Source: Chitinispirillaceae bacterium (GTDB lineage: Bacteria > Fibrobacterota > Chitinivibrionia > Chitinivibrionales > Chitinispirillaceae). From it: a DNA stretch of 41,145 nucleotides. A program made the position numbers and the translations under genes. Each line of letters begins with the position of its first letter. Within the stretch, counting starts at the first letter, position 1. Positions 1-19,320 of this stretch are shown one piece after another. Location: positions 1 to 41,145 of the forward strand of contig JAFGNB010000172.1 of assembly GCA_016927235.1 (NCBI GenBank), read 5' to 3'. The notes beneath the pieces were generated by a model. It did no database searches. It saw only the letters and a list, made by a program, of their open reading frames with translations, and had not been told where the DNA came from.

Positions 1-29
1 GGAGATTGCACCCCGCCGGAGCTTGCCGG

Positions 30-2402
30 GTGAAACGTCGCGGCATCGTCGTCACCGGCATGGGGGTCGTCTGCAGCGCCGGAGGAAACTGCAATGAATT
101 CGCCCGCACGCTCGAGCGGGGAGCGTCGGCGCTTACAATGCTGACAGACCCGCGCGTGGCGCATTACGGCGAAATCCATGCCGGCCTGGTCGCCGACGAT
201 GCGCCGGGTGATTCGCCGTTTCCCGACGAAGATCGTTACCTCAGGTTCGCCGATCGGGCGATGCGGGAAGCGATCGGTCATGCGCGGATCAATTTTGACG
301 GATGCGATCCCCGTTCGGGGCTCTTCATGGGGACCTGTTCGGGACCGATGCTGACCATCGAAAAAAGCTTCGATCCCGACGGCGGGCGCAGGGCGCTCGA
401 TCGCACACAATTACGGAGAAAACAGTACTACCATGCGGCGCGCCTGCTCGCCGAGGGCTATCGGATCGGAGGGCCGGTCTGCACCGTCACGACGGCGTGT
501 TCCGCCTTCTGCGCCGCGCTTGCCGCCGCCGTTGACCTTATCCGCGCGGGACTTCTCGATACCGCGCTGGTGGCCGGGGCGGATTCATTCAGCCTGACGA
601 CGCTGGCGGGATTTATCGGTCTGAAAGCCGTCAGCAACGCCCCCTGCGCCCCTTTTTCCCGGCCGGTCGGCCTCAATCTCGGCGAGGGCGCCGCTGCGGT
701 GGTGCTGGAGGAACTCGAACGGGCGCGAAAACGGGCCGCCCCGGCGGTCGCCTCGATCGAAGGGTATGGCCTGTCGAACGATGCGTTTCACAGCAGCATG
801 CCCGATCCCACGGGAAAGGGGGCTGCCGCGGCGATTGCCGGGGCGCTTGACGATGCAAAGGTCGCCGCCGGGGATATCGCGTACATCAATGCACACGGCA
901 CCGGCACCGAGGCGAACGACAAGGCGGAAACAAAGGCGATCAGGCGCGTCTTCGGGGAGGGGCGGTGCGTGCCGCCGGTCAGTTCGACCAAGGGGATGAC
1001 CGGCCACTGCCTCGGGGCGGCCGGCGGGATTGAAACGGTCGCCGCGCTGCTCTGCGCGCAGCGGGGAGTACTTCCTCATACGGTCAATTTCTCAGGCGGG
1101 CGCGACGGGTGTACGCTCGATTACATCGGCGAGAGGAACCGGCCATGGCGGGCCGGGAAGCGCTGGCTTAAAAACAGTTTCGCTTTCGGCGGCAACAATG
1201 CGAGCATCGTGATAAAAAACGGCGCGCCCGCCGCTTATGAAACCGAAAAGAACGGATGCATCGACGAACCGGTGGTCGTCTCGGCGGCCGGCGTCGTTTC
1301 CGCGGCGGGTGTCGCTCCGCTCGACCTTCCCGAGGGTTACTTTACTATTGCATCACCGCTCCGCGAGCGCACCATACCGCACCACGGGACATGGCGGGTC
1401 CGCGAAGTTCCTCCGTTGGGCAATTACGCCGTCGAGCGGCGTTTGCCGCTTCGAACCATGGACCGTGCGGGAATGCTCGCCGCGGTGGCATCGGCGCATG
1501 CGCTAAAAAACGGGCGGATTCCCGAGCGCCCGGCATCGCGCCGCGCCGTCGGTTTGTTCATGAATATCGCGCAGGGATCCTCGTGGGCGGAACGCGAGCA
1601 CATCGGGCGGCTGCTGAAAAACCGCTATCGTATCGACAAGATCAACGCCTTTCCGTCTATCGTTCCCAACGCGGTTACCGGTACGGTCGCACGCGCGCTG
1701 TCGCTGAGCGGATGCAGCAACACCTTCTGCAACGGTCCCGGCGCGGCGCTTTCGGGGCTGGTTCTCTCATGGGCGGCGGTGAAAAACGGACACGCCAAGG
1801 CGCTTCTTTGTGGAGCGGTGGACGACCTGACCGAAACGGGACTTTACGATTGCGTTGCAGCGGAACGTACGGGTGGGGGGCGGCCGGTACTGGGCGAAGG
1901 GGCGGTGACGCTGCTCCTCGAACCCCGGTCGCATGCAATGCAGCGTGACGTCGACTATCTGGGCGCCGTCGTCGATTGCGCGTTTGTCGAGGGCGGAGCG
2001 GGCGCGGGGTGCGGAAAGGCGGTGTCCGCCATGGCATCGCTTTGTGAGATCCACGGGATCGCCCCCGCCGAAACGATAGCGATCGGCGTACCGGGCGGCG
2101 GGCATGAGCTGTTTCACGCAATAAAAAATCGCTTCCCCGGATTTGTCCGCGTCGACCAGACGCCGATGACCGGCTGGATGCCGGCGTGTCAGCCCCTTTT
2201 CGATATGGTTGCGGCGCTGGTGCGGAGGAGGGTTGGCGGAAAAAAGTGCGAAAAGTATATTTTTATAATTTCAAGCTTGCCGCCGGGAAAGACGATTATT
2301 GTTCTCCTGGAAAAGAGTGGTGCACGAAAGAGCGAAACGGAGCATGACGGAAACACTACGGGTACTGATAGAGCGGCGCGCAGCGATAATCAACCGGTTT
2401 AA
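30..2402 (+). CDS. Fused beta-ketoacyl synthase / chain-length-factor-like protein
   Basis: Decarboxylating condensing enzyme of a type II fatty-acid or polyketide pathway (thiolase fold), about 790 aa. The N-terminal KS domain (about residues 1-405) has the full triad: Cys157 in TTACSAF, His289 in NAHGTGT, and Lys321/His326 in KGMTGH, plus the SFAFGGNN signature near 383-390. A second KS-fold domain (about 412-762) is degenerate. Its nucleophile region reads NTFCNGPGAAL, but both His motifs are gone (TGWMPACQ replaces TGHCLGAA). It therefore resembles a chain-length factor fused in cis. I chose GTG at 30 because GGAG lies 8 nt upstream and MKRRGIVVTGMG is the usual KS start; an in-frame TTG at 6 is poorly spaced. 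The last ~29 residues lie beyond the fold and overlap the downstream ACP gene. The operon may begin upstream of the window. Confidence 0.88.
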   Translation: MKRRGIVVTGMGVVCSAGGNCNEFARTLERGASALTMLTDPRVAHYGEIHAGLVADDAPGDSPFPDEDRYLRFADRAMREAIGHARINFDGCDPRSGLFMGTCSGPMLTIEKSFDPDGGRRALDRTQLRRKQYYHAARLLAEGYRIGGPVCTVTTACSAFCAALAAAVDLIRAGLLDTALVAGADSFSLTTLAGFIGLKAVSNAPCAPFSRPVGLNLGEGAAAVVLEELERARKRAAPAVASIEGYGLSNDAFHSSMPDPTGKGAAAAIAGALDDAKVAAGDIAYINAHGTGTEANDKAETKAIRRVFGEGRCVPPVSSTKGMTGHCLGAAGGIETVAALLCAQRGVLPHTVNFSGGRDGCTLDYIGERNRPWRAGKRWLKNSFAFGGNNASIVIKNGAPAAYETEKNGCIDEPVVVSAAGVVSAAGVAPLDLPEGYFTIASPLRERTIPHHGTWRVREVPPLGNYAVERRLPLRTMDRAGMLAAVASAHALKNGRIPERPASRRAVGLFMNIAQGSSWAEREHIGRLLKNRYRIDKINAFPSIVPNAVTGTVARALSLSGCSNTFCNGPGAALSGLVLSWAAVKNGHAKALLCGAVDDLTETGLYDCVAAERTGGGRPVLGEGAVTLLLEPRSHAMQRDVDYLGAVVDCAFVEGGAGAGCGKAVSAMASLCEIHGIAPAETIAIGVPGGGHELFHAIKNRFPGFVRVDQTPMTGWMPACQPLFDMVAALVRRRVGGKKCEKYIFIISSLPPGKTIIVLLEKSGARKSETEHDGNTTGTDRAARSDNQPV

Positions 2403-2631
2403 GGAAGATCTTATCCAGCGGCTCAATCTTCCTTACGAACCGCAGGATCTGCATGAGGATGTTTCGCTGCTGGGAGCGGGACTGGGACTCGATTCTCTTG
2501 ATGCGCTGGAAATCGTTCTCTGCGTCGAGAACTGTTTCGGGATAAAAATACCGGATCAGAACACGTCGATCCTTCGTTCGATCAACACCATCGTCGATTA
2601 TGTCATCGCCCGACAGGAGAAGCGGGGATGA
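2344..2631 (+). CDS. Acyl carrier protein
   Basis: Small acidic four-helix carrier protein of 95 aa that tethers acyl intermediates on a phosphopantetheine arm. The attachment motif is LGLDSLDALE with Ser51 as the modified residue, followed by the typical helix II/III pattern (VENCFGIKIPDQ...SINTIVDYV). The start ATG at 2344 lies inside the 3' end of the ketosynthase gene, with GGAG directly before it, so translational coupling is likely. An in-frame GTG at 2320 would add 8 residues. It presumably serves the ketosynthase, reductase and acyltransferase encoded beside it. Confidence 0.9.
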   Translation: MTETLRVLIERRAAIINRFKEDLIQRLNLPYEPQDLHEDVSLLGAGLGLDSLDALEIVLCVENCFGIKIPDQNTSILRSINTIVDYVIARQEKRG

Positions 2632-2635
2632 CCGG

Positions 2636-3736
2636 ATGAGAGTATCTCCGCTGAAGAACCGTTTCGTGCGGAACAACGCCTCATTTTCTGAACGGTACGG
2701 CATCGAAGTCGTCACACGGGTTCGCGACGCGCGCACCGAGTATGATGCCGTACGTGAAACGGTCGGAATCACCGATTTTTCGTTCATGCAGAAATTCCGT
2801 TTTCCCGAGGAGGCGGGGCTCGATCATCTCGACGGTTTGATGGCGGGGAATGTCGCGAAGATCCGTTTCGGCCGGGTGCTGCATACGTTTCTCCCCGACG
2901 ACGAGGGCATGCTTCTTGCCGATTGCTATATCGCAAACAGCGACGACGAGTTTATCGTGCTCTGCGAAAGCATTGCCGACGATGCCGACGTACGGCGGCG
3001 CTTTCTCGCAGGGGGAGGGCGCGACGGTGAAGATTGGACCGAGTCGCATGCGGTAATCGGCGTCGACGGCTACAAAGCATGGGAGGTCGTGCGGCAGCTC
3101 TTCGGTGCCGATATTCTCGGACTGCCCTATCTTTCGATCGAACGGTATCTTTTCAACGATATTCCGGTGCGTGTGCTGCGATGCGGCAAGACGTCGGAAT
3201 TCGGGTATCTCATTGTTGCGCCGCAGGAGCTCGCCGGCGCGCTGTTCGATACGGTAATGACCATCGCACAAAGTCTCAACGGCTCGCTCTGCGGAACCGC
3301 CGTCCACAACGATCTGCGGCTGGAGGGGAGATTCTTCAATATTTTCGCCGAGGGCAGGGAGGTGCGCGACCCGCTGGCGCTGGGGCTTCAATGGATGATC
3401 GATTTTGAAAAAGAGCGGTTTATCGGCAGGGATGCGCTGGTAGCGCGGCGTTCGGCCGGGGTGCGGAAGAAGATCATCGGCATCCGGGCGCCGGATTCCG
3501 TGACGTTCGAAACGGGAAAGACGCTGTTCGACGGCGATACGGAGGTGGGGGCCGTTAAGGCCGCCTGCTATTCATACCAGCTTAACGCTTCTCTGGGGTT
3601 GGCGTTGTTCGAGAGCGACGTCGCATACGCCGGACTGCCCTTTCATTACGGATCACCCTCCGGCCAGGTAGTACAGTCCATTTCCATGCCGCCGATCATG
3701 CCGAAGAGCCTGACGGTCAAACTTGATGAGCTGTAA
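2636..3736 (+). CDS. GcvT/T-protein-like (aminomethyltransferase-fold) protein
   Basis: 366-aa protein of the GcvT/YgfZ/DmdA folate-binding fold. Family-like segments occur in order: EYDAVRETVGITDFS near the N-terminus (the 'R..VG..D.S' block), LADCYIANSDDEFIV in the middle, SEFGYLIVAP (the T-protein 'TGE.GYE' region) and MIDFEKERFIGRDAL (the 'dK..fIG..aL' block), then a C-terminal barrel. Family members move one-carbon units to or from tetrahydrofolate (glycine cleavage, DMSP demethylation) or act in Fe-S maintenance. The substrate here is unknown. The gene starts 4 nt after the ACP stop; GGGG is 8 nt before ATG 2636. No gcvH or gcvP is nearby, so a glycine-cleavage role is unlikely. An accessory one-carbon step in the acyl pathway is an inference from context. 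Confidence 0.72.
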   Translation: MRVSPLKNRFVRNNASFSERYGIEVVTRVRDARTEYDAVRETVGITDFSFMQKFRFPEEAGLDHLDGLMAGNVAKIRFGRVLHTFLPDDEGMLLADCYIANSDDEFIVLCESIADDADVRRRFLAGGGRDGEDWTESHAVIGVDGYKAWEVVRQLFGADILGLPYLSIERYLFNDIPVRVLRCGKTSEFGYLIVAPQELAGALFDTVMTIAQSLNGSLCGTAVHNDLRLEGRFFNIFAEGREVRDPLALGLQWMIDFEKERFIGRDALVARRSAGVRKKIIGIRAPDSVTFETGKTLFDGDTEVGAVKAACYSYQLNASLGLALFESDVAYAGLPFHYGSPSGQVVQSISMPPIMPKSLTVKLDEL

Positions 3737-3854
3737 GGGGCGCAACCTTTTTTCACGAAACAACGATTTCCATGGCACCAGGGCCGGCGGAGCGGCATGA
3801 ATTATTGCATTTTAAATCGCGGCGAGAGGGCGCTATAGTCGCTGAGGGCTGATA

Positions 3855-4595
3855 ATGGAACAATTTTCCGGCAAAACGGTCATTGTTACGGGAGGCTCAC
3901 GCGGTATCGGCAGGGCAATCGTCGCCGCGTTTGCCGCGGAGGGCGCATGCGTCTATTTCACCTATCACCGCCACAAGGAGGCGGCCGACACAACAGCGGC
4001 GGAAACGGGAGCGCGCCCGGTACTCTGCGAACAATCCGACGAGCCTGCAATCGTCGCCGTGGTCGATGACATCACCGCGGCAAGTGGCGCGGTCGACATT
4101 CTGGTCAACAATGCCGGCATCGTTGCCGATCAGTTTTTGATGATGATGCCCCGTGAAACATGGTCAAAGGTAATCGATACCAATTGCGGCGGCGCTTTCC
4201 TGTGGACCAAGGCGGTGTCGCGCTGTATGCTGAATGCGAAACGGGGCGCTATCGTCAATATTGCATCCGTTTCGGGGATGGTGGGAACCGCGGGGCAGGC
4301 GAACTACGCCGCTTCAAAGGGTGCGATAATCGCTTTTTCCCGTTCCTGCGCAGCGGAATTCGGTCCGAAAGGAATACGGGTCAATAGTGTCGTGCCGGGG
4401 TTTATCGATACCGATATGACCGCACGGATGCCCCGTTCCATCAAGCGGCAAAGCCTTGAGAGGATTTTACTCCGCCGCTTTGGTACCGCTGCCGAGGTGG
4501 CCGCCGTCGTAACGTTTATCGCGTCCGACAAAGCTTCCTATATCGCAGGACAAACGGTTGTCGTCGACGGCGGTTTGACGGGAACGGTCGTTTGA
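3855..4595 (+). CDS. fabG: 3-oxoacyl-ACP reductase (FabG-type SDR)
   Basis: NADPH-dependent short-chain dehydrogenase/reductase of 246 aa that reduces 3-ketoacyl-ACP to 3-hydroxyacyl-ACP. All classical SDR landmarks are present: TGGSRGIG (12-19) for cofactor binding, NNAG (85-88), and the catalytic set Asn110, Ser138, Tyr151, Lys155 in YAASK, followed by the VPGFIDTDM loop. Length and motifs match FabG. The gene lies 118 nt after the GcvT-like gene and its stop overlaps the start of the acyltransferase (TGATG), so the two are translationally coupled. A GAGGG sequence precedes the ATG. Since it sits in a secondary KS/ACP operon, it may be a pathway-specific paralogue rather than the housekeeping FabG. 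Confidence 0.9.
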   Translation: MEQFSGKTVIVTGGSRGIGRAIVAAFAAEGACVYFTYHRHKEAADTTAAETGARPVLCEQSDEPAIVAVVDDITAASGAVDILVNNAGIVADQFLMMMPRETWSKVIDTNCGGAFLWTKAVSRCMLNAKRGAIVNIASVSGMVGTAGQANYAASKGAIIAFSRSCAAEFGPKGIRVNSVVPGFIDTDMTARMPRSIKRQSLERILLRRFGTAAEVAAVVTFIASDKASYIAGQTVVVDGGLTGTVV

Positions 4596-5536
4596 TGGGA
4601 AAAAGGGCCTTTCTCTTTCCTGGTCAGGGATCTCAGGAAACCGGCATGGGGAGCGACCTGCTGCGTCACGACCCCTTCACCCGTGCGCTCTTCGTTGACG
4701 CATCCGACACCGTTCATGAGGATCTCGAAAAGCTCTGTCTGCACGGGCCGGTTCGGCAATTGATGCATGCGCGTTTTCTACAGCCGGCACTGGTGTCGGT
4801 TTGTCTGGGGTATTGGCATCGTCTGGTTGAAAACGGCATTCGACCGGATGTCGTACTCGGTCATTCGCTGGGGGAGATCACCTCGCTGGCTGCGGCGGGA
4901 ATCGTTGCCCCGGAGGTGTGCCTGCAGATTGCAATCAAACGAGGCGAGTTGATGGATAGCGTCGCTCGCAACTGCAAAGGCGGGATGCTGGCGATTCTGT
5001 TCGTACCGCTTGCAACGGTTCAGCGGCTGATCGCCGAAATCGGGGAGGGGCGCATTGTCCTTGCGAATGATAATGCGCCCGAACAGGTGGTGGTATCAGG
5101 TGAGTCCCTTTTCCTCGATCGCATCGCGGCGCATATCGCCCGTGAGAAACTCGGAAAATGCCGCAGGGTGGAGGTTGTCGGGCCGTGGCACAGCCCGTTC
5201 ATGGATGCTTCGCGTGCTGTTTTTGAAACGTGGGTTGCATCGATTCCGTTTTCAGTGCCGAACGTGCCGGTTGTTTTTAATGCCACGGCGGCTCCGGAAC
5301 GGGATCCGTTGATCATCAAACAGTTGATATCCGGTCAACTGAACCGACCGGTATTCTGGCGGAAGTGTATGGAAAGCCTTAAAGCCATCGGCGTGGACAC
5401 CCTCTATGAAATCGGGCCGCAACGTGTATTGTCGGGACTTGCACGGATTAACGGTTTTAGAAAGGGGACGGCGATCCACACCGTATCCGGCCTTCGTGAC
5501 ATCGATCGGGTAACGGTACTGGCGCTCGTTGAATGA
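4595..5536 (+). CDS. fabD: Malonyl-CoA:ACP transacylase (FabD-type)
   Basis: 313-aa acyltransferase that loads malonyl (or another acyl) groups from CoA onto the carrier protein. PGQGSQ lies at 9-14, the nucleophile Ser91 is in GHSLGE, and the catalytic His is in WHSPFM near residue 200. The oxyanion/substrate region follows the FabD pattern. The start ATG at 4595 shares its A with the fabG stop codon. It is the last gene of the operon; a hairpin with a T-run follows at 5604-5636. No dehydratase, enoyl reductase or FabH is encoded here, so those steps must come from elsewhere or from genes upstream of the window. Confidence 0.9.
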   Translation: MGKRAFLFPGQGSQETGMGSDLLRHDPFTRALFVDASDTVHEDLEKLCLHGPVRQLMHARFLQPALVSVCLGYWHRLVENGIRPDVVLGHSLGEITSLAAAGIVAPEVCLQIAIKRGELMDSVARNCKGGMLAILFVPLATVQRLIAEIGEGRIVLANDNAPEQVVVSGESLFLDRIAAHIAREKLGKCRRVEVVGPWHSPFMDASRAVFETWVASIPFSVPNVPVVFNATAAPERDPLIIKQLISGQLNRPVFWRKCMESLKAIGVDTLYEIGPQRVLSGLARINGFRKGTAIHTVSGLRDIDRVTVLALVE

Positions 5537-5603: not shown

Positions 5604-5636
5604 GGTATGGTGTGGAACAATCATACCATTTTTTTT
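5604..5636 (+). terminator. Putative intrinsic terminator after fabD
   Basis: GGTATG (5604-5609) pairs with CATACC (5622-5627) around a 12-nt loop and is followed by a run of eight T. It lies 67 nt after the acyltransferase stop. The stem is short and AT-rich, so efficiency may be modest. Confidence 0.5.
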
Positions 5637-9721: not shown

Positions 9722-9810
9722 GAACACCATCGAATATCGTTCCGTAAAGTATCGCGGCAACGGGGCGGCTTCGCCGGTTAATGGCCTGAAAAAGAGTGCA
9801 TCGTAGAGCT

Positions 9811-11871
9811 ATGTTCCAACCGCCAGACCTCAGCGTTGTCGAATATGCCTGCTGTTTCTTGGGCATGGCAATGCAGGCCGTTTGCCTGGCGGCGCGCAAG
9901 ACGCCGCTCAAATATCTGTTGCCCGCTCTGGTCGCCACGGCTCCTGTGACGGTGCTTGCCGCCTCCTCGTTTACCCGTTTTCTCGGCTGGGACGAATCGT
10001 ATATCTTCTACGATATCGTCAATTTCCGTTCAAGCCGGTTGCCGCAATGGGAGATGGGCTCGTTCCGTACCTCTATTACCGTCTGGGGCCCGTTGTTCAG
10101 TCTCGTGCAGACGCTCATCCCCTTTACCAAGGACCAGGTGCTGGTCATGGCGAAAGCGGCGCACTGGTTGACCGGTGTGGCGTTGATCACGCTGATCATC
10201 GACCGGACGTATCGCATTCTTTCGATCACGGCCGAACGCTGGTTCTTCCATACCGTTATGTACAATCTTATTGTAGCGCTGCCGGTCACCGTGTGTGCGC
10301 TCAAGACACTCAATTACGACCTCCTCTCGATGCTGCTGGGGGTACTGGGGTGCGTATGGCTGGTTGCCGGTGCGCATCCGGTAAGAAAGGAGGCGCTTTT
10401 TGCCGGTATTGCCGCTCTCACCCTTGCCGCCCACGAAAAGCTCATCGCCTCTCCACTGCTGTGGGCGGGCGTTATTTTCACCGTCGTCCGCCTGGTTGAC
10501 TCAAAGAAAGATTCGTCATGGCTGAAATTCGCCGTAAGGAACGGTCTATGGTCGGCAATGACGACGGCGGTCCCCCTGCTTCTTGTCGGATCGTCATTCC
10601 TGTTTGTTCATTTGACGCACGGATCGAACGGGCCCGGCATCGATGCCGGTCGACTCTTCGAGGTATTCACCTCGGGATTCTGGCCGTTGGGGCGGCTGGT
10701 ATCCGCACCGTTATCGGGACGACCGTTTTTCGCATCAATCGACAATGAAACCGTCAACCTTTTATTCGGGTATGCCGCCGTTACCGCAATGGTCGGCTTA
10801 ATTGCAGGGCTTTTTCCGGGCGCCGTCCGGATAGGAAGAACCGTCAATCGCCGGCCGCCGGCATTATCATCCGTCGCTGCGGCGGCCGCGTGGGCGAAAT
10901 TGTCGTTGCTGCTCTTTCTGACAATGACGGGAATCATCGCCGGATATGCGCTCGACGTGAAGATCTGGCCGCACGTACCGGTGCTTCCCGGAAACTATGT
11001 GCCCCGCGCGACATTCAACGGCATCGCCCACCATTTCGGCAGCGGAACGCTCTTCGCCCATGGAACGGCTTCAACGGCGTGGGCCTGCGCGGTATTCGTC
11101 AACGCGTTGCCCACAACGCTGCTGGGGCTTCTGATTATCGCTTGTATAATCCCTCTCCGTGCGATAAAAAAAAGATCGCCTTCGCAGTACGGGCTCCCGT
11201 TGGACATGGCGGCGCTTCTGTTCATGACGGCTCCCCTTCTGTACGGTGCATTGCAGATTCCTCTCTACCCCCGTTATTTGAATCTCTTTCTTCTGGGGAC
11301 AATCGTCACCGTCATCCCCGGCCTCTTTACAATACGATTACGACAATTTGTTCCAACGGCATGTCTCGCGGTTATCGGTCTGCTCCTGCTGATCGGCGAG
11401 TGCCTTCCGTTTCAGCCGCTTTGCGCCGCCTTTCGTCCGATATGGTCGAACTATTCAAAAGAATGCCATAACGATCCCTGCTTCGGAAAGGTGACCCCGT
11501 GGTATCCCGGCTGGGGAGAGGAATTATATGCGGCCTATCGACGTATCAGACACATGGAGCCCGCCTGCTGCGGGAAGGTGAGGCTTTTTTATAATTTCCC
11601 CGCCGACGTGATACACCCGCCGGAAAAGGTGGAGACGTTCTCAATGCCGGTCGAAACCGGACAATTTGAATATGGCTATGGGGATTGTGACTATTATATA
11701 CTTTCAAGAAATGGCGTTTCAACTTATCTCACTATTCCCTTTCCCTACAATCGTAAGCCGGTTTTTACGATTTCAGACAGGGAATTCGTCAAAGCCTGGG
11801 TCTTCAGGGGGAGGGAACTTGCCGGGGGAGGATTCGGGTTCGGCAAGGAGCGCCTCGGCGCTTCTCCCTGA
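9811..11871 (+). CDS. Polytopic membrane protein, GT-C glycosyltransferase-like (paralogue 1)
   Basis: About 686 aa with a dozen or so hydrophobic segments and a soluble C-terminal stretch. The first periplasmic loop carries an acidic pair, D61-E62 in GWDESYIFYD, placed where GT-C enzymes (PMT/ArnT-like, lipid-phosphate-sugar dependent) have their catalytic acidic residue. The protein is similar throughout to the next gene: shared blocks include FVNALPTT, PLLYG, RYLNLFLL and GWGEELY. Start ATG 9811 was chosen over GTG 9796; a weak TAGAG precedes it. No donor-specific motif is recognised, so transfer of a sugar to lipid or protein is an inference. The neighbouring - strand glycan cluster fits that role. 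Confidence 0.62.
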   Translation: MFQPPDLSVVEYACCFLGMAMQAVCLAARKTPLKYLLPALVATAPVTVLAASSFTRFLGWDESYIFYDIVNFRSSRLPQWEMGSFRTSITVWGPLFSLVQTLIPFTKDQVLVMAKAAHWLTGVALITLIIDRTYRILSITAERWFFHTVMYNLIVALPVTVCALKTLNYDLLSMLLGVLGCVWLVAGAHPVRKEALFAGIAALTLAAHEKLIASPLLWAGVIFTVVRLVDSKKDSSWLKFAVRNGLWSAMTTAVPLLLVGSSFLFVHLTHGSNGPGIDAGRLFEVFTSGFWPLGRLVSAPLSGRPFFASIDNETVNLLFGYAAVTAMVGLIAGLFPGAVRIGRTVNRRPPALSSVAAAAAWAKLSLLLFLTMTGIIAGYALDVKIWPHVPVLPGNYVPRATFNGIAHHFGSGTLFAHGTASTAWACAVFVNALPTTLLGLLIIACIIPLRAIKKRSPSQYGLPLDMAALLFMTAPLLYGALQIPLYPRYLNLFLLGTIVTVIPGLFTIRLRQFVPTACLAVIGLLLLIGECLPFQPLCAAFRPIWSNYSKECHNDPCFGKVTPWYPGWGEELYAAYRRIRHMEPACCGKVRLFYNFPADVIHPPEKVETFSMPVETGQFEYGYGDCDYYILSRNGVSTYLTIPFPYNRKPVFTISDREFVKAWVFRGRELAGGGFGFGKERLGASP

Positions 11872-12046
11872 CAATCAAAATTCGTGCGGCGTTCGCGCGG
11901 AAGCCGCCGGGCGGAAGCAAACAACAAGTATGTGGCCCCCGCGGCGGCGGTGATTATATACTGTACGCCGAGCGGTACACCCGGAACGGGAGAGTATCGT
12001 TCCGGCTCAGCCGTCAATGAATACATTGGGAAGGACGCCCGATTGT

Positions 12047-14095
12047 ATGGGACTGTCTTTGATGCTTGAGATGCTAACGGGATTTTCCGCGGTGATGCTG
12101 CAGGCAGGGTATCTTTATGTCATGCGAAAGAGGTCGGTTCGAACGGCGGTGGTAACGGCGCTTCTCACGTTGCCGGCGCTTTACCTCTCGCTTGAATCGA
12201 TGAACTCATTCTTAACCTATGATGAAAGCTATATCGTCTATGAGCCCGTTGATCTTGTCAACAACTCCCTGTTGCAATGGAACATGGGTGCACTCCGGAC
12301 GACCGATCTGCTCGTCGGCATTCCGATTGCGGGCGTCAAAATGGCGACCGGCGTATCGATGAATATCCTGGCGGTTTTCGCGAAATCGCTTCACTGGTTT
12401 CTTTCGTTGTTGCTTATCCTTTTTATCATCGACTTTTTATACCGGCTGCTGAACAAGCAAAAAAACTTTCCGTTATTTTATTTAGTCGCATTTTACTCGA
12501 TCGGCGCACTCCCCGTCGTGCTTATGGCACAGAAAATTATCACCTACGATGCGTTCTCGATGCTGCTCGGTGGTGCGGCGGTGCTGTTGCTTGCGGCGGG
12601 GTGGCGGGAAAAGCGGCCGCTGCATCTCTATGCAAGTGTCGTCGTCGCCGCACTCGCCGCTCAGGAGAAGCTGATCGCCTCGCCGCTGGTGTGGATCTGT
12701 TTCGTACTGGTCCCGTTGAGAATAGGGTGTTGGCGCGGCCTTCAGCCGTTGGGGAGAACGCTGCGAAGAACAATAAACGCGACCTGTATCGCCGTTGCGT
12801 CGGCGCTTTCGGTATTCATGGCTTCGCATCTGCTTATTTCGTTGATCAATAGTGCCGGAGGACCCGGGAGGAATGCATTCAACGTGTTGCACCCGCTGGT
12901 ATCCGGATTCTGGCCCCTGTTGCGCGCAGCGGGGATCGATACCGCCGCCCTCTTTACAAATCCCCTGTTCGAGCGCGGGTATTTCATTCCACTGTTGGCG
13001 GCAGCGGTCGTCGCGGTGATGACAGGCGTCACTACGGCCGGAGCGGCGGTGATCGGCTTGACGTACCGCCTGCGGAAAAACGCCCCCGCCTTCGGGCGGG
13101 CAGCCTGGAGAATGGAAGTTGTCAATTATCTCTTTTTCTTTGCCGTGTACGCGGGCGGCATTGCGGGAACATTTCTGATCAGGGCCTTTCTTGCGCCGCA
13201 CTATCCCGTTGCGCCCGGCGCCTATGCAGGGTATACCTTCAACCGCACGTTTGTTTATTTCGGGGCGAAATCACTCTTGACCCACACTGCGTTTTCAATC
13301 GGATGGGCATATACCTTTTTTGTCAACGCACTGCCGACCGTTTTCCTGATAATGGCGATTGCGAATTTCGTTTCGGCGATCAGACGCAGGAGCGCACCGG
13401 GAAATTTCTTGAGCGCAGTATTTACCGGCGCGCTGCTGATGCCGTTGCTGTACGGACTGTTTCAGGTGCCGGTCGGCAACCGCTATTTCAATCTGTTTCT
13501 TCTGTTCGTCGCCGTCAAAATAGCGGCGGATTTTGCCGACGTCCTCGCCGGTATTCGCCGGCCGATTCTCGCGGCGGCAATGATGATTATTCTGATTATC
13601 GTTGAAATAATGCCGTTCCGGCCGCTCTTCGGATCATTCCGGCCGCTGTGGACGGACTATTCGTCCGCCTACAATCAAACCCCGTCAAAAGCAATCCTCA
13701 ATCCCTGGTGGATGGGGTGGGGAGAAGAGGTGTATCTCGCCGGGCGACAAATAAAAAAACAGATGAAACGCGACAATCCTTATCTTAGTGGGGTTACGAT
13801 CTATACGAATTACCAGGGCGAGTGGCTGTACCGGAAGAACAGCGCGCATGTCGTCCTGCTCGATACCGTCGACAGCATCGGGTATTCCGAGAATGATTTT
13901 TTCGTTTTGAACAGAATGGGCATCGCACAGTCGTCGATGAATTTTCCCGGAAGCGTCGCTCCGTTCGGCACGATCGGTTTCAGAGGCTTCGTTCAGGGAT
14001 GGATTTTCAGGGGGAGCGATCTGAAGGCGGCGGGGTTTAGGTTTAAACGGAAAAAGTCGTATTCGAAAAATAGTCTTTTTTCATTAAAGGTATGA
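12047..14095 (+). CDS. Polytopic membrane protein, GT-C glycosyltransferase-like (paralogue 2)
   Basis: About 682 aa and clearly paralogous to the preceding gene over its full length. Shared blocks are TYDESYIVYE (acidic pair D59-E60), AQEKLIASPLVW, SGFWPL, FVNALPTV, LLYGLFQVP, YFNLFLL, RPLWTDYS and WWMGWGEEVYLAGRQI. It begins 175 nt after paralogue 1 with no clear terminator between them, so cotranscription is likely. GGGAAGGA lies 11 nt before ATG 12047; an in-frame ATG at 12017 would add ten residues that are not hydrophobic. The acidic pair and topology suggest a lipid-linked-sugar transferase, but the substrate is unknown. It ends convergently with the glycan cluster, with no obvious terminator in the 110-nt gap. 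Confidence 0.62.
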   Translation: MGLSLMLEMLTGFSAVMLQAGYLYVMRKRSVRTAVVTALLTLPALYLSLESMNSFLTYDESYIVYEPVDLVNNSLLQWNMGALRTTDLLVGIPIAGVKMATGVSMNILAVFAKSLHWFLSLLLILFIIDFLYRLLNKQKNFPLFYLVAFYSIGALPVVLMAQKIITYDAFSMLLGGAAVLLLAAGWREKRPLHLYASVVVAALAAQEKLIASPLVWICFVLVPLRIGCWRGLQPLGRTLRRTINATCIAVASALSVFMASHLLISLINSAGGPGRNAFNVLHPLVSGFWPLLRAAGIDTAALFTNPLFERGYFIPLLAAAVVAVMTGVTTAGAAVIGLTYRLRKNAPAFGRAAWRMEVVNYLFFFAVYAGGIAGTFLIRAFLAPHYPVAPGAYAGYTFNRTFVYFGAKSLLTHTAFSIGWAYTFFVNALPTVFLIMAIANFVSAIRRRSAPGNFLSAVFTGALLMPLLYGLFQVPVGNRYFNLFLLFVAVKIAADFADVLAGIRRPILAAAMMIILIIVEIMPFRPLFGSFRPLWTDYSSAYNQTPSKAILNPWWMGWGEEVYLAGRQIKKQMKRDNPYLSGVTIYTNYQGEWLYRKNSAHVVLLDTVDSIGYSENDFFVLNRMGIAQSSMNFPGSVAPFGTIGFRGFVQGWIFRGSDLKAAGFRFKRKKSYSKNSLFSLKV

Positions 14096-14205: not shown

Positions 14206-15174
14206 TTATGATAAAGACGCCCCGTTGTTTATGGATGTTGATTTTATTGAAGTAACTATGAATGTTACCCCTGCAATACCCATGACGACCAATTCGAAAA
14301 AATACCCTATCAAATTAAATGCGATGACATTTTCCATGGAGATGGAATACGCCGATAGAAGATAGAAAAAACCACCTTCTCGTACACCGATTCCCATGAT
14401 GCTGATAGGAATCATTGTCAGTAACGAATTGAGTGGCAGGACGGCCATCGAGTAGAAGAAATCAATGTCCAGATGAACAGCCTTGAGCAAGCAGAATGTA
14501 CCCACTTGAATACAACCATTCATGACTATACCGAGTGCACAGATCGCACAGGCCCTTTTCCAATCGGCGAAAACAATTGCAGGGAAATAGACACATTCAT
14601 CCACCCCCCCTTTTTTCATCCATTTTTTCAGCATTTCTTTCATCGAAAACGGGTTGAAAAAATAAATAATGACAAAAAATATAGCCGTCATGGCACCCGC
14701 ACTTAACATCCCGATGATGATGGCTCTCACGTTGTGAGGCACCTCAGAGTAAATAAATGGTAAAAAAACGATCATAATACAAACGATCGAAGGGATTGAC
14801 AACAAACGATCGAGAAGGAACGCGGCGACGGTCGTTCGAAGGCGGTTGTCCTTTGATCGCAATGAAAGCACGATACTCACATCGCTTCCCAAAGTTCCTG
14901 GAGCAAAGTATCCGTAGAGTTTTCCCACTAATAATGAATAAAAGATTTTTTTTAAAGGGATACTGACAAAGTATCCAAGACTCGTCCGAAGTCTAATTGA
15001 CCAGAAGAAAAGAGTGAACAATCCCAATAGAAAACTTATGATGACAAATCGAATATCCGCCTTTTTTATTTCGGTACCTATTCTTGTGAAATCAAAGAAA
15101 AAAAAGGCACTAACAATAATGGATATTGCCGTAGCAATACGTATGTAGAAAAAGATTCTCTTATGTTTTTTCAT
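14206..15174 (-). CDS. Flippase-like membrane protein (LPG-synthase TM region / UPF0104 family)
   Basis: 322-aa integral membrane protein with about eight hydrophobic helices. FAPGTLGSDVSIVLSLR and LDRLLSIPSIV resemble the conserved 'P.g.G.d..r...l' and 'DR' motifs of the lysylphosphatidylglycerol-synthetase membrane domain (AglD/MprF N-terminal type). Such proteins move or modify lipids and are common in polysaccharide clusters. There is no C-terminal aminoacyl-transferase domain. The gene is more AT-rich than the rest of the cluster. It is the last gene on this strand, 124 nt after the GT4 gene, and may have its own promoter. Confidence 0.66.
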   Translation of the reverse strand: MKKHKRIFFYIRIATAISIIVSAFFFFDFTRIGTEIKKADIRFVIISFLLGLFTLFFWSIRLRTSLGYFVSIPLKKIFYSLLVGKLYGYFAPGTLGSDVSIVLSLRSKDNRLRTTVAAFLLDRLLSIPSIVCIMIVFLPFIYSEVPHNVRAIIIGMLSAGAMTAIFFVIIYFFNPFSMKEMLKKWMKKGGVDECVYFPAIVFADWKRACAICALGIVMNGCIQVGTFCLLKAVHLDIDFFYSMAVLPLNSLLTMIPISIMGIGVREGGFFYLLSAYSISMENVIAFNLIGYFFELVVMGIAGVTFIVTSIKSTSINNGASLS

Positions 15175-15298
15175 TCGACCATAGAGCTGTAAACACTATA
15201 AAAAGCCCATCCTTTAAACGTGCTGCCGCAGTAAAATCTGTTTTCGCTTCCGTTTTATCCCATCTCCATCTTACCGGAAAGAGTAAGAAAAAGGAGTT

Positions 15299-16429
15299 TC
15301 ATCGTGTGCAATCAACGGCGCTTATATATTGATTAATTACAATATCTTCGGTGAACTGTTTTTGAAAAGTCAGGTAGCCGTTATCCGACAGTGTCCTCCG
15401 TAACGCACTGTCTGCAATCAGTTTTAGGAGTGCGCCGATGATGGAATCGGCATCACCCTGATTAACCAGAAGACCGTTTTTACCGTCGTCGATGATATCG
15501 AGAGCGCCGGATGTCCGTGTGGTAATAACCGGTAACCTGTATGCAAATGCTTCAATCATACTCATACTGAGTCCCTCGGTGAGAGAACTCTGCAAAAAGC
15601 AATCAGCCGCCTTCATGTAGGAATAGAGCTCTTTTTTCCCTACTACACCATGGAACCGGACGTCCGCACTCAGCCGTGTCGAAAGGCGCTGATACATTTC
15701 TCTGTTCGGTCCATCCCCAAAAAGATGTAGCGTAGCGTCCGGTATTGTCGATATAGCCCGTATTGCGAAACTGAAGCCTTTTGTTTCGGTGCAGCGCTCA
15801 TAAACCATTCTTCCGATGCCGATACAGTGAAACCTTCCATCATCCATTCCGTATCGATGCCGCAGTTCATCTTTACTACCGGGAATACTGTCCGGAATGA
15901 AAATATTGCGTGCAATAAACGGATTCACCCTGGGCACCATTTTTTTGACTTGAAAAGCATATTCGTTGTTTGTCGCTAGTACCACTTTGTTGATACAATA
16001 TGCCAATCGGGCGAGCGCTAAAATCCTATTCGCGTGAAATATACTGCCGTGAGTATGGACAAGAGATATTCGTTTTCGACTAAGAATACCTGAAACCCCT
16101 GAAAGAATACCGCCCTCCCATGGTGTCTGACCCAGCACGTAATCGGGGCATATCGTGAACTGAAGCAGGAACAGCCCCCGCAGGAAAAAATAGCAATAAA
16201 AACCGTAAACCAGTATTCCATATTTTTCTAAAAATCTTCCGCCGATTCTGTATATGGCGATTTTGTCAACGACCTCAAATCTATTAAGGATACCGTTCGA
16301 ACGTGGAGTAAGCACTGACACCGCGTAGCCTTTGCGTATTAGAGCACATGCGAGGGTGAACGATGAATTGCCCACACCGGCGGATTCCGGATAAAAACGG
16401 TCGACGATAATACACCACTTTTTTTTCAT
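15299..16429 (-). CDS. Glycosyltransferase, GT4 family (GT-B fold)
   Basis: 376-aa retaining glycosyltransferase. The N-terminal Rossmann half begins CIIVDRFYPESAGVGNSSF. The C-terminal donor-binding half has IGIGRMVYERCTETKGF, LHLFGDGPNREMY, FHGVVGKKELYSYM and the E-x7-E region (SLTEGLSMSMIEAFAYRLPVI). The start is ATG 16429, which overlaps the stop of the upstream flavoprotein gene (ATGA). A longer frame exists but would lie entirely inside that gene. It is somewhat AT-rich. It acts on the cytoplasmic face, adding a sugar to the surface glycan built by the cluster; donor and acceptor are unknown. Confidence 0.86.
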   Translation of the reverse strand: MKKKWCIIVDRFYPESAGVGNSSFTLACALIRKGYAVSVLTPRSNGILNRFEVVDKIAIYRIGGRFLEKYGILVYGFYCYFFLRGLFLLQFTICPDYVLGQTPWEGGILSGVSGILSRKRISLVHTHGSIFHANRILALARLAYCINKVVLATNNEYAFQVKKMVPRVNPFIARNIFIPDSIPGSKDELRHRYGMDDGRFHCIGIGRMVYERCTETKGFSFAIRAISTIPDATLHLFGDGPNREMYQRLSTRLSADVRFHGVVGKKELYSYMKAADCFLQSSLTEGLSMSMIEAFAYRLPVITTRTSGALDIIDDGKNGLLVNQGDADSIIGALLKLIADSALRRTLSDNGYLTFQKQFTEDIVINQYISAVDCTR

Positions 16430-17733
16430 CGACAAATGGTCTCCACCGTGCTGCAGGCCTGTAGCATACTTGTTTCCATATCGGAATACTCCCATGCACC
16501 ATAGCGACCGATTGAATATATCCCCTGCGCCTTGAGCCAGGCGATGATGCTCCTGCGGGCATGTTTCCAATGTTTATCGTACGTAACATAGGCAAACGGC
16601 AGATCAAGAAGGCATCGTTCGATAATATCGTCCGGTGATTTTATTATTCCAAGTTTCCCGAGGCGACGGACTGATTTATCAAGCAGTGCCTGCCGATCGG
16701 GCGTGTGATAGCGGTAGGCAATCTCCGCGTAAAGCGATGTGGTTCCTTCCAGACAGTTTTCCGGAGCGAAAGATGAATAAAAACCGATCCGGTAGAAGGG
16801 ATACTCTTTTTCAGGATAATAAATCCATGATATTCCGTCGGGTGATGCGCCTTTTACGGCAAGATTAATATTGTAGACTCCCGAACATTTCAATGTACTG
16901 TTTAATTTCCTGATTTCCGTCGGAACTTCCTGCATACGGCTTATCAGCAGCTTAAGGGGCATCGTGGTGATCAGGGTATCATAGGTCAACTCCATGCCGT
17001 CGGCGGTGGTGACTGTTCTGAGTTTCGGATTAACGGCTGCAACGTCTTTCCGTGGTACGATGCTGTCGCCGACCTTGTCCGCCAGAGCCCTGATGAGCGA
17101 TTCGATTCCTCCCGTTTTCGGGTATTGAAAGCGGGCATTGTAGCCCGATTCCGAAGCCATCGGCTGCAGTGCACCGCTCAGAAGGCAGTGTAGATCGGTT
17201 GAAGGGACATAATGCCCCATCCATTCCGTTGTCAATTTATAGGGATCGATGACCCATAATTTCTCGTTGTAGGGGAGCATGAAATGTCGCGCAATTCCTT
17301 CCCCGAAGTGGTTGACCACCCAGGAAGCGAAGGAGGTATCGTCGGTATGAAGCGGTTTTTCAAACCGGGCGCGAACGAAGCCCTCAATGCATTCGACCAC
17401 CACCGATGCGGGGAGGCCGTAAAGATTGCATTGAAAGGGGTAGCCGGTAAGTCGCCCGAAGGAATAGATCTTGCTGTTTCTTGTATGGGTACAGAGGTTT
17501 CCGCCAAGGAGGTTTTTGACAAGACGCTTCATTTTATCAGAGTCGAAATGCAGGAGGTGCCCGCAGCGGTCAAAGAGGAACCCCCCTTTACGTTCGGTCC
17601 TGCAGAGTCCTCCCGGGCGCAGTTCCTTTTCAATGACAACAAAATCCTTTTGTCCGGATGCCTGGAGAAAATATCCCGCCGACAATCCGGAAAGCCCGGC
17701 GCCGATGATAATATGATTATAATGAGATTTCAT
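16426..17733 (-). CDS. FAD-dependent amine-oxidase-fold protein, UDP-galactopyranose-mutase-like
   Basis: 435-aa flavoprotein. The N-terminal dinucleotide-binding motif is HIIIGAGLSGLSAGYFL, followed by the ADP-ribose Glu (VIEKELRPGGLCRTE) and GHLLHF. FGRLTGYPFQCNL and LPYNEKLWVIDPYKL resemble the group of glf/HemG-like enzymes found in polysaccharide loci. The exact reaction (sugar ring contraction versus another oxidoreduction) cannot be told from sequence alone. No Shine-Dalgarno sequence precedes the ATG. A TTGTTC-18-TACAAT promoter ends about 10 nt upstream, which would make the transcript nearly leaderless. Its stop overlaps the GT4 start by 4 nt. Confidence 0.8.
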   Translation of the reverse strand: MKSHYNHIIIGAGLSGLSAGYFLQASGQKDFVVIEKELRPGGLCRTERKGGFLFDRCGHLLHFDSDKMKRLVKNLLGGNLCTHTRNSKIYSFGRLTGYPFQCNLYGLPASVVVECIEGFVRARFEKPLHTDDTSFASWVVNHFGEGIARHFMLPYNEKLWVIDPYKLTTEWMGHYVPSTDLHCLLSGALQPMASESGYNARFQYPKTGGIESLIRALADKVGDSIVPRKDVAAVNPKLRTVTTADGMELTYDTLITTMPLKLLISRMQEVPTEIRKLNSTLKCSGVYNINLAVKGASPDGISWIYYPEKEYPFYRIGFYSSFAPENCLEGTTSLYAEIAYRYHTPDRQALLDKSVRRLGKLGIIKSPDDIIERCLLDLPFAYVTYDKHWKHARRSIIAWLKAQGIYSIGRYGAWEYSDMETSMLQACSTVETICR

Positions 17734-17742
17734 AACAATAGT

Positions 17743-17772
17743 ATTGTAACTTTGTTAAGACGGACAGAACAA
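17743..17772 (-). promoter_or_regulatory. Sigma-70-like promoter giving a near-leaderless transcript
   Basis: On the minus strand TTGTTC (17772-17767), an 18-nt spacer and TACAAT (17748-17743). The predicted start of transcription is within a few nt of the ATG at 17733. Confidence 0.38.
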
Positions 17773-17873
17773 GCTTTTTAAAGATATATATATTCTGCTC
17801 CACGGCCTAATTTTACTCATGCCGCAACTGGCAGGCTACCGTAATGATGCCGATACGGTTTAACAATATTGAA

Positions 17874-18172
17874 TCAGCTTTTCCTGAAAATAAACTCGTT
17901 ACATCCTGTCGGCACCTGCGCCGGAATTATACTGCTGCAGGTAAGTCCATAGGGCTCCACCATGGCTTTAACCTCCTCCGCCGTCGCATACTCATACGGG
18001 TATCCACCGATCCAGTCTATAACATCATGAAGGAATATCATTCCACGTCGCTACCGGAACGGATACCGTCGAGTAATTTCAAGAAATCGCTTCTGGCGAA
18101 TTCGATGCGTTCTTTAGTCAAGGCATTACGTGAATAAGAGATCCAGTTCTTGCCGATATCGAAATGTTTCAT
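17874..18172 (-). pseudogene. Class I SAM-dependent methyltransferase remnant with internal deletion
   Basis: Only the two ends of a UbiG-like methyltransferase remain. The N-terminal end starts at ATG 18172 (MKHFDIGKNWISYSRNALTK...FLKLLDGI) and overlaps the upstream GT4 stop as ATGA. After about 42 codons it shifts into a different frame (RGMIFLHDVIDWIGGYPYEYA, then the C-terminal end ...PTGCNEFIFRKS, stop at 17874-17876). The whole SAM-binding core (GxGxG motif and following strands), probably 130-150 codons, is missing, and the two ends are out of frame. The family's usual length is about 220-250 aa. The original gene was clearly part of this glycan operon. It cannot encode an active enzyme as it stands. 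Confidence 0.75.
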
Positions 18173-19320
18173 CGAACGCTCGCCTTTTCGGAGATGATCG
18201 TATGGAGTTCCGCCGTGACCGCTTGCCATGAAAATCGTTCGCAACACATCTTTCTTCCCTTGACGCCGAGCTCGATGCCGATCGAGCGGTCGTTTGCCAA
18301 CGCCGCCATTTTGTCAGCCAGTTCCACCTGGTTACGCGGCTCGAACAAAAAACCGTTTTCCCCGTTGACGATTATGTCCCTGTTGCCGATGCAGTCGCTG
18401 CCGAGCACCGGCAGTCCGCACGCCATGGCCTCGAGGACGGTATTGGGCATTCCCTCGTTGACGGATGGATTAACGAGGCAGTGGGATGACCGGTAGAACG
18501 CCCTGACCTCATTTTTCGAACGCCAGCCCGCCCACGTGACGTATCCGTCGATGCGGAGTGAACCGGCAAGCGATTTGAGCTGCGAGTAGTGCGGACCGTT
18601 TCCCAGCAGCACAAGTCTGACTGCGGGACACCGCGACAGACACGCGGCAAAAGCGGTGATGAGCACACCGATGTTTTTCTGCTCGCAGAACCTTCCCACG
18701 AAGATAAAGCGGAAGTGCCCGTCAGCGACAGGGGGTTGTTCCGGAGGCGAATAGAAAACGGTGTCGACTCCGTTTTTTACGACGTCGATGCGGAATCCCG
18801 GGTCGGCTTTGAGGGCAAGGTTTTTCAATCCCTCCGAATTGGCGATGATCGCGGCGCTTCTCCGGTAAATTTGTCTTCTGATCGGCATAAGGAGTTTATG
18901 CGCCATGGTCAGGCGGGCGTCGGAACCCGGCACATCACCGCCGCGAAGAAGGAGCGCATAGGGAATTTTCCAGAAGCCCCGGGCAATCAATGCTATCGGA
19001 CCGCAGGGAAAGCTGAAAAAGATGATCAGCGCATCGGGATGCTCCCTTGAAAGAACGTACGGTAAATGCGCCAGTGCCGATATGCCGTACAGTATCATCT
19101 GAAATATCGATGATTGATCAGCCCTCATCCTGAAGGCGGGGATCCGGTATATCGTGACACCCTTCTCGACCGCACGGCCGTGCCTGGTCTTGTACGCCGA
19201 GGTCAGAACGCTTGTTCTGATTCCCTTTTTTACCATATTGATCGCGAAATAATAATTTGCATTAGCCGCGCCTGCGCCTACGGGGGGATACTCATAGTTG
19301 ATAAAGAGTATCGATTTCAC
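18169..19320 (-). CDS. Glycosyltransferase, GT4 family (GT-B fold)
   Basis: 383-aa retaining glycosyltransferase. The N-terminal half begins ILFINYEYPPVGAGAANANYYF. The C-terminal half shows FRFIFVGRFCEQKNIGVL, RLVLLGNGPHYSQL, TWAGWRSKNEVRAFY and PSVNEGMPNTVLEAMACGLPVLGS, which holds the E-x7-E donor site. The start is GTG 19320, which overlaps the stop of the amidotransferase gene (GTGA); the longer in-frame start would sit wholly in that gene. It is translationally coupled on both sides: upstream to the amidotransferase and downstream to the methyltransferase remnant. Substrates are unknown. Confidence 0.88.
   Translation of the reverse strand: MKSILFINYEYPPVGAGAANANYYFAINMVKKGIRTSVLTSAYKTRHGRAVEKGVTIYRIPAFRMRADQSSIFQMILYGISALAHLPYVLSREHPDALIIFFSFPCGPIALIARGFWKIPYALLLRGGDVPGSDARLTMAHKLLMPIRRQIYRRSAAIIANSEGLKNLALKADPGFRIDVVKNGVDTVFYSPPEQPPVADGHFRFIFVGRFCEQKNIGVLITAFAACLSRCPAVRLVLLGNGPHYSQLKSLAGSLRIDGYVTWAGWRSKNEVRAFYRSSHCLVNPSVNEGMPNTVLEAMACGLPVLGSDCIGNRDIIVNGENGFLFEPRNQVELADKMAALANDRSIGIELGVKGRKMCCERFSWQAVTAELHTIISEKASVR

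Follow-up and report, generated by a model that had tools for sequence, protein, structure and literature searches.

A fused ketosynthase-chain-length factor operon of a Chitinispirillaceae bacterium and its predicted B12-radical SAM and GcvT-like partners

The DNA analyzed here is a stretch of 41,145 nt (the window) from a Chitinispirillaceae bacterium, an uncultured anaerobic member of the Fibrobacterota. It is the entire contig JAFGNB010000172.1 (C277) of assembly GCA_016927235.1 (4.15 Mb, 396 contigs, 86.75% complete), base 1 being the contig start. Its first genes encode an intact ketosynthase (KS) fused to a degenerate, chain-length factor (CLF)-like KS, followed by an acyl carrier protein (ACP), a GcvT-fold protein, FabG and FabD (Table 1). 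We consider it rather likely that these genes are the distal section of a conserved operon encoding a dedicated type II assembly line that works anaerobically and whose product is probably a polyunsaturated or polyene acyl chain passed to a lipid. In its relatives the fusion protein follows a second, paralogous KS-CLF protein with a B12-binding radical S-adenosylmethionine (SAM) domain (encoded by a separate neighbouring gene in two Myxococcota), and this arrangement points to a lipid or polyene pathway not yet described.

A single open frame (30–2402) spans both ketosynthase halves. Pfam KS domains were matched in the first half, which has the catalytic set Cys157, His289 and His326 (numbered from the GTG at position 30; codons at 498, 894 and 1005), in agreement with an earlier interpretation made from the DNA alone (the sequence-only reading), and also the Lys before the second His. 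That reading also held that the second fold had lost both His motifs. This was correct but incomplete: Pro, Pro, Trp and Thr stand where Cys, His, His and Lys would align, and the cysteine of an FCNGPG motif in this half sits three residues out of register with the catalytic Cys. The protein thus combines a Cys-His-His(-Lys) KS with a homologous partner devoid of the Cys, as in KS-CLF pairs; unlike the usual pairs of separate proteins, the two are fused in every relative compared. Nine further genomes, from several families, carry the same fusion (36–74% identity; 41 genomes searched), with the degenerate half in frame in all relatives, one of which is cut by a contig end. A sequencing error joining or splitting genes, considered in the sequence-only reading, is thereby ruled out. 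The protein terminates after the CLF half, with no dehydratase domains attached. A plasmid collection searched with the CLF half gave weak, partial matches only.

The AlphaFold2 model of the fusion protein (pTM 0.87, mean pLDDT 75) had as its best PDB fold match, along the whole length, the KS-CLF of PfaC from polyunsaturated fatty acid (PUFA) synthases (6riw, TMq 0.79). PfaC likewise carries KS and CLF in one polypeptide, as an internal pseudo-dimer, but the identity is 18%, dehydratase domains follow in PfaC, and here ACP, FabG and FabD are separate genes and a radical SAM domain is part of the paralogous partner. The top PDB sequence matches of the CLF half were 9s5h_C, 6kxd_A and 6kxd_B, belonging to type II polyketide synthase (PKS) KS-CLF pairs (ishigamide Iga11/Iga12, 6kxd; 9s5h chains B and C), in which a KS also works with an inactive partner, yet on separate chains. 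To our knowledge, the ishigamide system has no radical SAM or GcvT-like partner. The FabF equivalog TIGR03150 was not reached (298 bits vs. a cut-off of 493.75).

Phylogeny was inferred from 60 rows, in which KSa/CLFa denote the radical SAM-linked unit and KSb/CLFb the paralogous unit as in the window; the program flagged long branches for a short Escherichia coli aryl polyene (APE) CLF row and for G034_KS, whose sliced translation contains stops. KSa and KSb were sisters (98/98), and so were CLFa and CLFb (99/99), which suggests that one fused KS-CLF unit was duplicated; a single fused ancestor giving rise to both units would fit the tree. The catalytic residues are all retained in both KS domains and lost from both CLF domains. 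The KS domains formed a clade of their own, separate from the E. coli APE ketosynthases, while the CLF halves stood apart from FabF/FabB, on the same side as CLFs of other systems. The structural and phylogenetic checks proposed in the sequence-only reading thus support its KS-CLF interpretation. Its emphasis on how unusual the fusion is has to be softened, as a one-chain KS-CLF has a precedent in PfaC.

In all nine relatives with the fusion, the gene directly upstream, which overlaps the fusion gene, encodes a protein of ~1250 aa with a B12-binding/radical SAM part followed by two KS units, the first intact and the second degenerate (radical SAM-KS-CLF). Across 17 such proteins, neither the CxxxCxxC cysteines nor the Cys-His-His set of the KS varies. 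The features of cobalamin radical SAM enzymes (CxxxCxxC, B12-binding domain) were found in the relatives and on contig C111 of the source genome, outside the window. Bases 1–33 of the window (GDCTPPELAG*, the asterisk marking the stop) match the end of the radical SAM-KS-CLF gene of G001, a genome of the same genus (...QPELPG*), and the TGA of this remnant overlaps the GTG of the fusion gene (GTGA) exactly as in G001. From these 10 codons and synteny we infer that the remnant is the end of a B12-radical SAM-KS-CLF orthologue, inside which the window would have been cut. Examination of upstream genes, another check suggested earlier, was thus possible through the remnant and the nine relatives, but not further within the contig, which begins at base 1. 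No second copy of the window's first 250 bases exists in the assembly. A second, more divergent radical SAM-KS-CLF gene of the source assembly, a paralogue or a contaminant, lies on C111 (locus L029, 2824–6567) beside two genes for methionine-synthase-like proteins (819 and 497+ aa). It was rejected as the missing upstream piece, as it ends in ...VLVRRGN*, unlike the remnant.

Like HpnR, BchE and the ladderane-type family TIGR04072, the upstream proteins combine B12-binding and radical SAM domains with CxxxCxxC and give weak profile matches. The scores are, however, far under the family cut-offs (for TIGR04072, 52.7 bits vs. 360 with the protein of relative G012), and here the domains are fused to a KS-CLF. 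In two Myxococcota/Deltaproteobacteria loci (L123, L125) a separate radical SAM gene comes first, followed by KSa-CLFa and then KSb-CLFb, and the radical SAM is a stand-alone open frame of 450–510 aa in three genomes of this group. B12 radical SAM genes have been described beside PKS/fatty acid synthesis (FAS) genes in the sponge swf PKS (PMC3908369) and the ladderane system (PMC2649909), but these are separate and different. Nothing relevant on radical SAM-KS fusions, on GcvT-like proteins with ketosynthases, or on fused KS-CLF in these phyla was found in the literature searched. No B12 riboswitch was detected in the loci of six relatives, on C111 or in the window. ZMP/ZTP riboswitches lie near the locus in two relatives (L033, 18749–18830; L034, 1084–1165).

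ACP, FabG and FabD follow the fusion gene as the sequence-only reading had described, and all three fall in ordinary families by profile matches; the best NCBIfam match of the ACP was PRK09184, below cut-off. Overlooked was the GcvT-fold gene (2636–3736) lying straight after the ACP gene and before fabG. This ACP-paired protein and the B12-radical SAM-KS-CLF partner, the most distinctive parts of the system, had both remained unseen. The predicted model of the GcvT-like protein (pTM 0.86) matched the glycine cleavage T-protein 1wos (TM 0.84/0.88, ~21% identity), and also dimethylglycine dehydrogenase, DmdA and LigM, whereas the gcvT profile cut-off was not reached (93 bits vs. 235.85). The family lacks the full set of canonical T-protein motif residues: one Asp of the Asp pair is kept, GYTGExG(Y/F)E is replaced by GKT(S/G)EFGY with the final Glu gone, and the RD/RLE segment by HN/LRLEG. 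Several of the changed positions are putative folate-site positions of canonical T-proteins. The family has invariant residues of its own. It thus resembles the T-protein in its fold, the retained Asp and the pairing with a swinging-arm carrier, but differs in the changed Glu/Arg motif positions and in its partner, an ACP.

A scan for the GcvT-like family gave 55 loci in the Fibrobacterota, Verrucomicrobiota, Lentisphaerae, Kiritimatiellia, Omnitrophota, Deltaproteobacteria/Myxococcota and a few further groups. Genes of relatives were called as mechanical open reading frames (ORFs) with BLAST labels, and many loci are cut by contig ends, so that locus counts are lower bounds. An ACP gene was directly upstream of the GcvT-like gene in 43/55 loci, a KS-CLF fusion was present in at least 21 and a radical SAM-KS fusion in at least 19. 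More distant loci, of Polyangium, Labilithrix and Archangium, combine a KS-CLF with a GcvT-like gene and in most cases also with FabG and FabD; in Polyangium (Polyangium fumosum DSM 14668) the search for the radical SAM gave no match. At E <= 1e-150, the radical SAM was present in only 2 of 388 sampled genomes of the Verrucomicrobiota, the phylum of L065.

A trio of PlsC-type acyltransferase, FabZ and FMN_red/SCP2 (flavodoxin/SCP2) genes adjoins the operon in 13–16 of the 55 loci, and in the source genome the three lie together on contig C71. Among the 41 genomes, radical SAM-KS-CLF occurred in 17, a full-length FMN_red/SCP2 match in 17 and both in 16, with one exception each way (Fisher p 3e-9, relatedness ignored). 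By co-occurrence and neighbourhood, PlsC, FabZ and flavodoxin/SCP2 belong to the same system as the operon. The sequence-only reading had remarked that the window has neither a dehydratase nor an enoyl reductase. Indeed, tblastn with four FabZ/FabA-type queries found no dehydratase in the window; the reason is that the window ends there, as the system is accompanied by a FabZ. Nor did the conserved gene set show an enoyl reductase, though no search was aimed at enoyl reductases in the window or the genome.

Table 1. Features at the start of the window.
Feature	Position	Strand	Basis
Upstream-gene remnant, last 10 codons and stop (GDCTPPELAG*)	1..33	+	Match to end of G001 orthologue
KS-CLF fusion protein; KS ~residues 1–397, CLF-like half ~405–765, then tail	30..2402	+	Pfam, fold, tree, residues
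Codon of KS nucleophile Cys157	498..500	+	Residue alignment
Codons of His289, Lys and His326	at 894, 990 and 1005	+	Residue alignment
Second half, KS fold without Cys/His/His/Lys, CLF-like	1245..2402	+	Tree, PDB sequence matches, residue alignment
Acyl carrier protein (GLDSLD serine); start overlaps end of fusion gene	2344..2631	+	
GcvT-fold (aminomethyltransferase-like) protein, putative folate-site residues altered	2636..3736	+	
FabG-type 3-oxoacyl-ACP reductase	3855..4595	+	
FabD-type malonyl-CoA:ACP transacylase (GHSLGE)	4592..5536	+	
Terminator-like hairpin and T run, 3′ of fabD	5604..5629	+	Consensus match only

In the proposed pathway, FabD would load malonyl onto the ACP, the two KS-CLF units would extend the chain, FabG would reduce and FabZ dehydrate it, and double bonds would be retained, no dedicated enoyl reductase having been seen. 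The absence of such an enzyme from the conserved set makes a polyene or polyunsaturated chain the likeliest product. The radical SAM domain, in most cases fused to the first KS-CLF and in two Myxococcota/Deltaproteobacteria genomes a separate neighbour, probably works on the chain that the KS-CLF units extend. Held beside the first KS-CLF, it could methylate or otherwise rearrange an unactivated carbon of the ACP-bound intermediate. The GcvT-like protein may add a one-carbon unit to the ACP-bound chain or remove one from it, comparable to GcvT on the swinging arm of the H-protein, and PlsC would hand the product to a membrane lipid. More tentatively, the assembly line might be of a novel type: a B12 radical SAM domain built into a KS-CLF would modify the chain in place and a GcvT-derived protein would use the ACP arm like the H-protein arm, giving an undescribed class of lipid (a one-carbon-branched or cyclised polyene).

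The main alternative pathways have to be weighed against this gene content. The operon and its partners share KS-CLF, ACP, FabG, FabZ and an acyltransferase with APE clusters (ApeO/ApeC), so that an APE-type pigment pathway, with an aromatic starter, KS-CLF elongation and MMPL export, comes to mind. Some relatives are embedded in APE-like clusters: in L042, L045, L047 and the Opitutales-type L080, L086 and L088, radical SAM-KS-CLF/ACP/GcvT-like genes stand beside an MMPL-type exporter and lipid acyltransferases, with an aromatic amino acid lyase additionally in L047. PRK09184, matched by the window ACP, is moreover the type of E. coli APE clusters. Yet the window operon has no aromatic starter, starter-activating or exporter gene (the exporter was not searched genome-wide), the source genome (87% complete) gave no match to aromatic amino acid lyase (PF00221), and the KS domains belong to another clade than the E. 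coli APE ketosynthases. We regard this pathway as unlikely. A PUFA-synthase-like fatty acid, or a lipid of the ladderane or polyunsaturated-hydrocarbon type, is similarly improbable: the fold match to PfaC and the weak TIGR04072 match of the upstream radical SAM domain speak for it, but neither PfaA nor tandem dehydratase domains were seen and the operon has no phytoene-desaturase-like gene, the amine-oxidase/desaturase-like genes belonging to a different, unfused cluster.

Very improbable is a duplicated housekeeping fatty-acid operon with the second KS half as a decayed leftover. The ordinary families of FabG, FabD and ACP agree with it, but the degenerate half is preserved in frame and is sister of the other CLF, B12-radical SAM and GcvT-like genes are no FAS parts, and contig C155 of the source genome carries a separate, ordinary FAS-type locus with FabD, FabG, ACP and FabF. 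This separate locus also supports the specialised product proposed in the sequence-only reading; of the products named there, a polyene is more probable than a hydroxy-acid, given the co-occurring FabZ and a conserved set that showed no enoyl reductase.

Several points weigh against the favoured reading of a dedicated polyene or polyunsaturated lipid assembly line, in which the product and the functions assigned to the radical SAM and GcvT-like proteins are inferred. No member of the system has a known product, and a saturated chain could result if a housekeeping enoyl reductase worked in trans. The radical SAM domain could have a target other than the chain, and the upstream gene itself is missing from the incomplete assembly. 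With several canonical folate-site positions changed, folate use by the GcvT-like protein is only putative. Finally, the co-occurrence p-value takes no account of shared ancestry.

The hairpin behind fabD is probably the operon end. Terminator-like sites show no excess over shuffles. Further downstream, two successive ORFs of 691 and 692 aa without Pfam match occupy 9796–14095, and 14206–21185 on the minus strand encodes an LPG-synthase-like membrane protein, two glycosyltransferases, a flavin adenine dinucleotide (FAD) amine oxidase and asparagine synthase; G+C drops to ~0.42 around 14–16 kb. The unfused cluster, a parallel one in the same genomes and a further argument for the favoured reading, comprises B12-radical SAM, FabG, FabZ, KS and CLF and lies partly on C392 in the source genome (G000). 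It was seen at L030 (C392) and L116–L122, with FAD amine-oxidase/desaturase-like genes also in L117 and L119. L119 and C196 of the source genome (L121) hold a 932–949-aa fusion of an FAD amine-oxidase/desaturase-like and a B12-radical SAM domain. In relatives, a ~588-aa protein is encoded downstream of the operon in Verrucomicrobiota-type L053, L061, L065, L067 and L068, its C-terminal half being CobD-like aminotransferase (tested on L061). A conserved ~464-aa gene lies on the opposite strand beside the operon in L049, L050, L051, L054 and L081; in L033, the neighbour of similar size is a leucyl-aminopeptidase (M17) of 463 aa.

If the favoured reading holds, B12/radical SAM chemistry would be physically joined to chain elongation, and the GcvT fold would gain a possible carrier-protein role beyond glycine cleavage. 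The Fibrobacterota, Omnitrophota and some Verrucomicrobiota would share a conserved gene set to which no product has been assigned, the Myxococcota having it with a separate radical SAM gene. Parts of it are carried by Puniceicoccaceae bacterium Marseille-Q1082 and Polyangium fumosum DSM 14668, which are not labelled as metagenome-assembled genomes, and the system could thus become testable.

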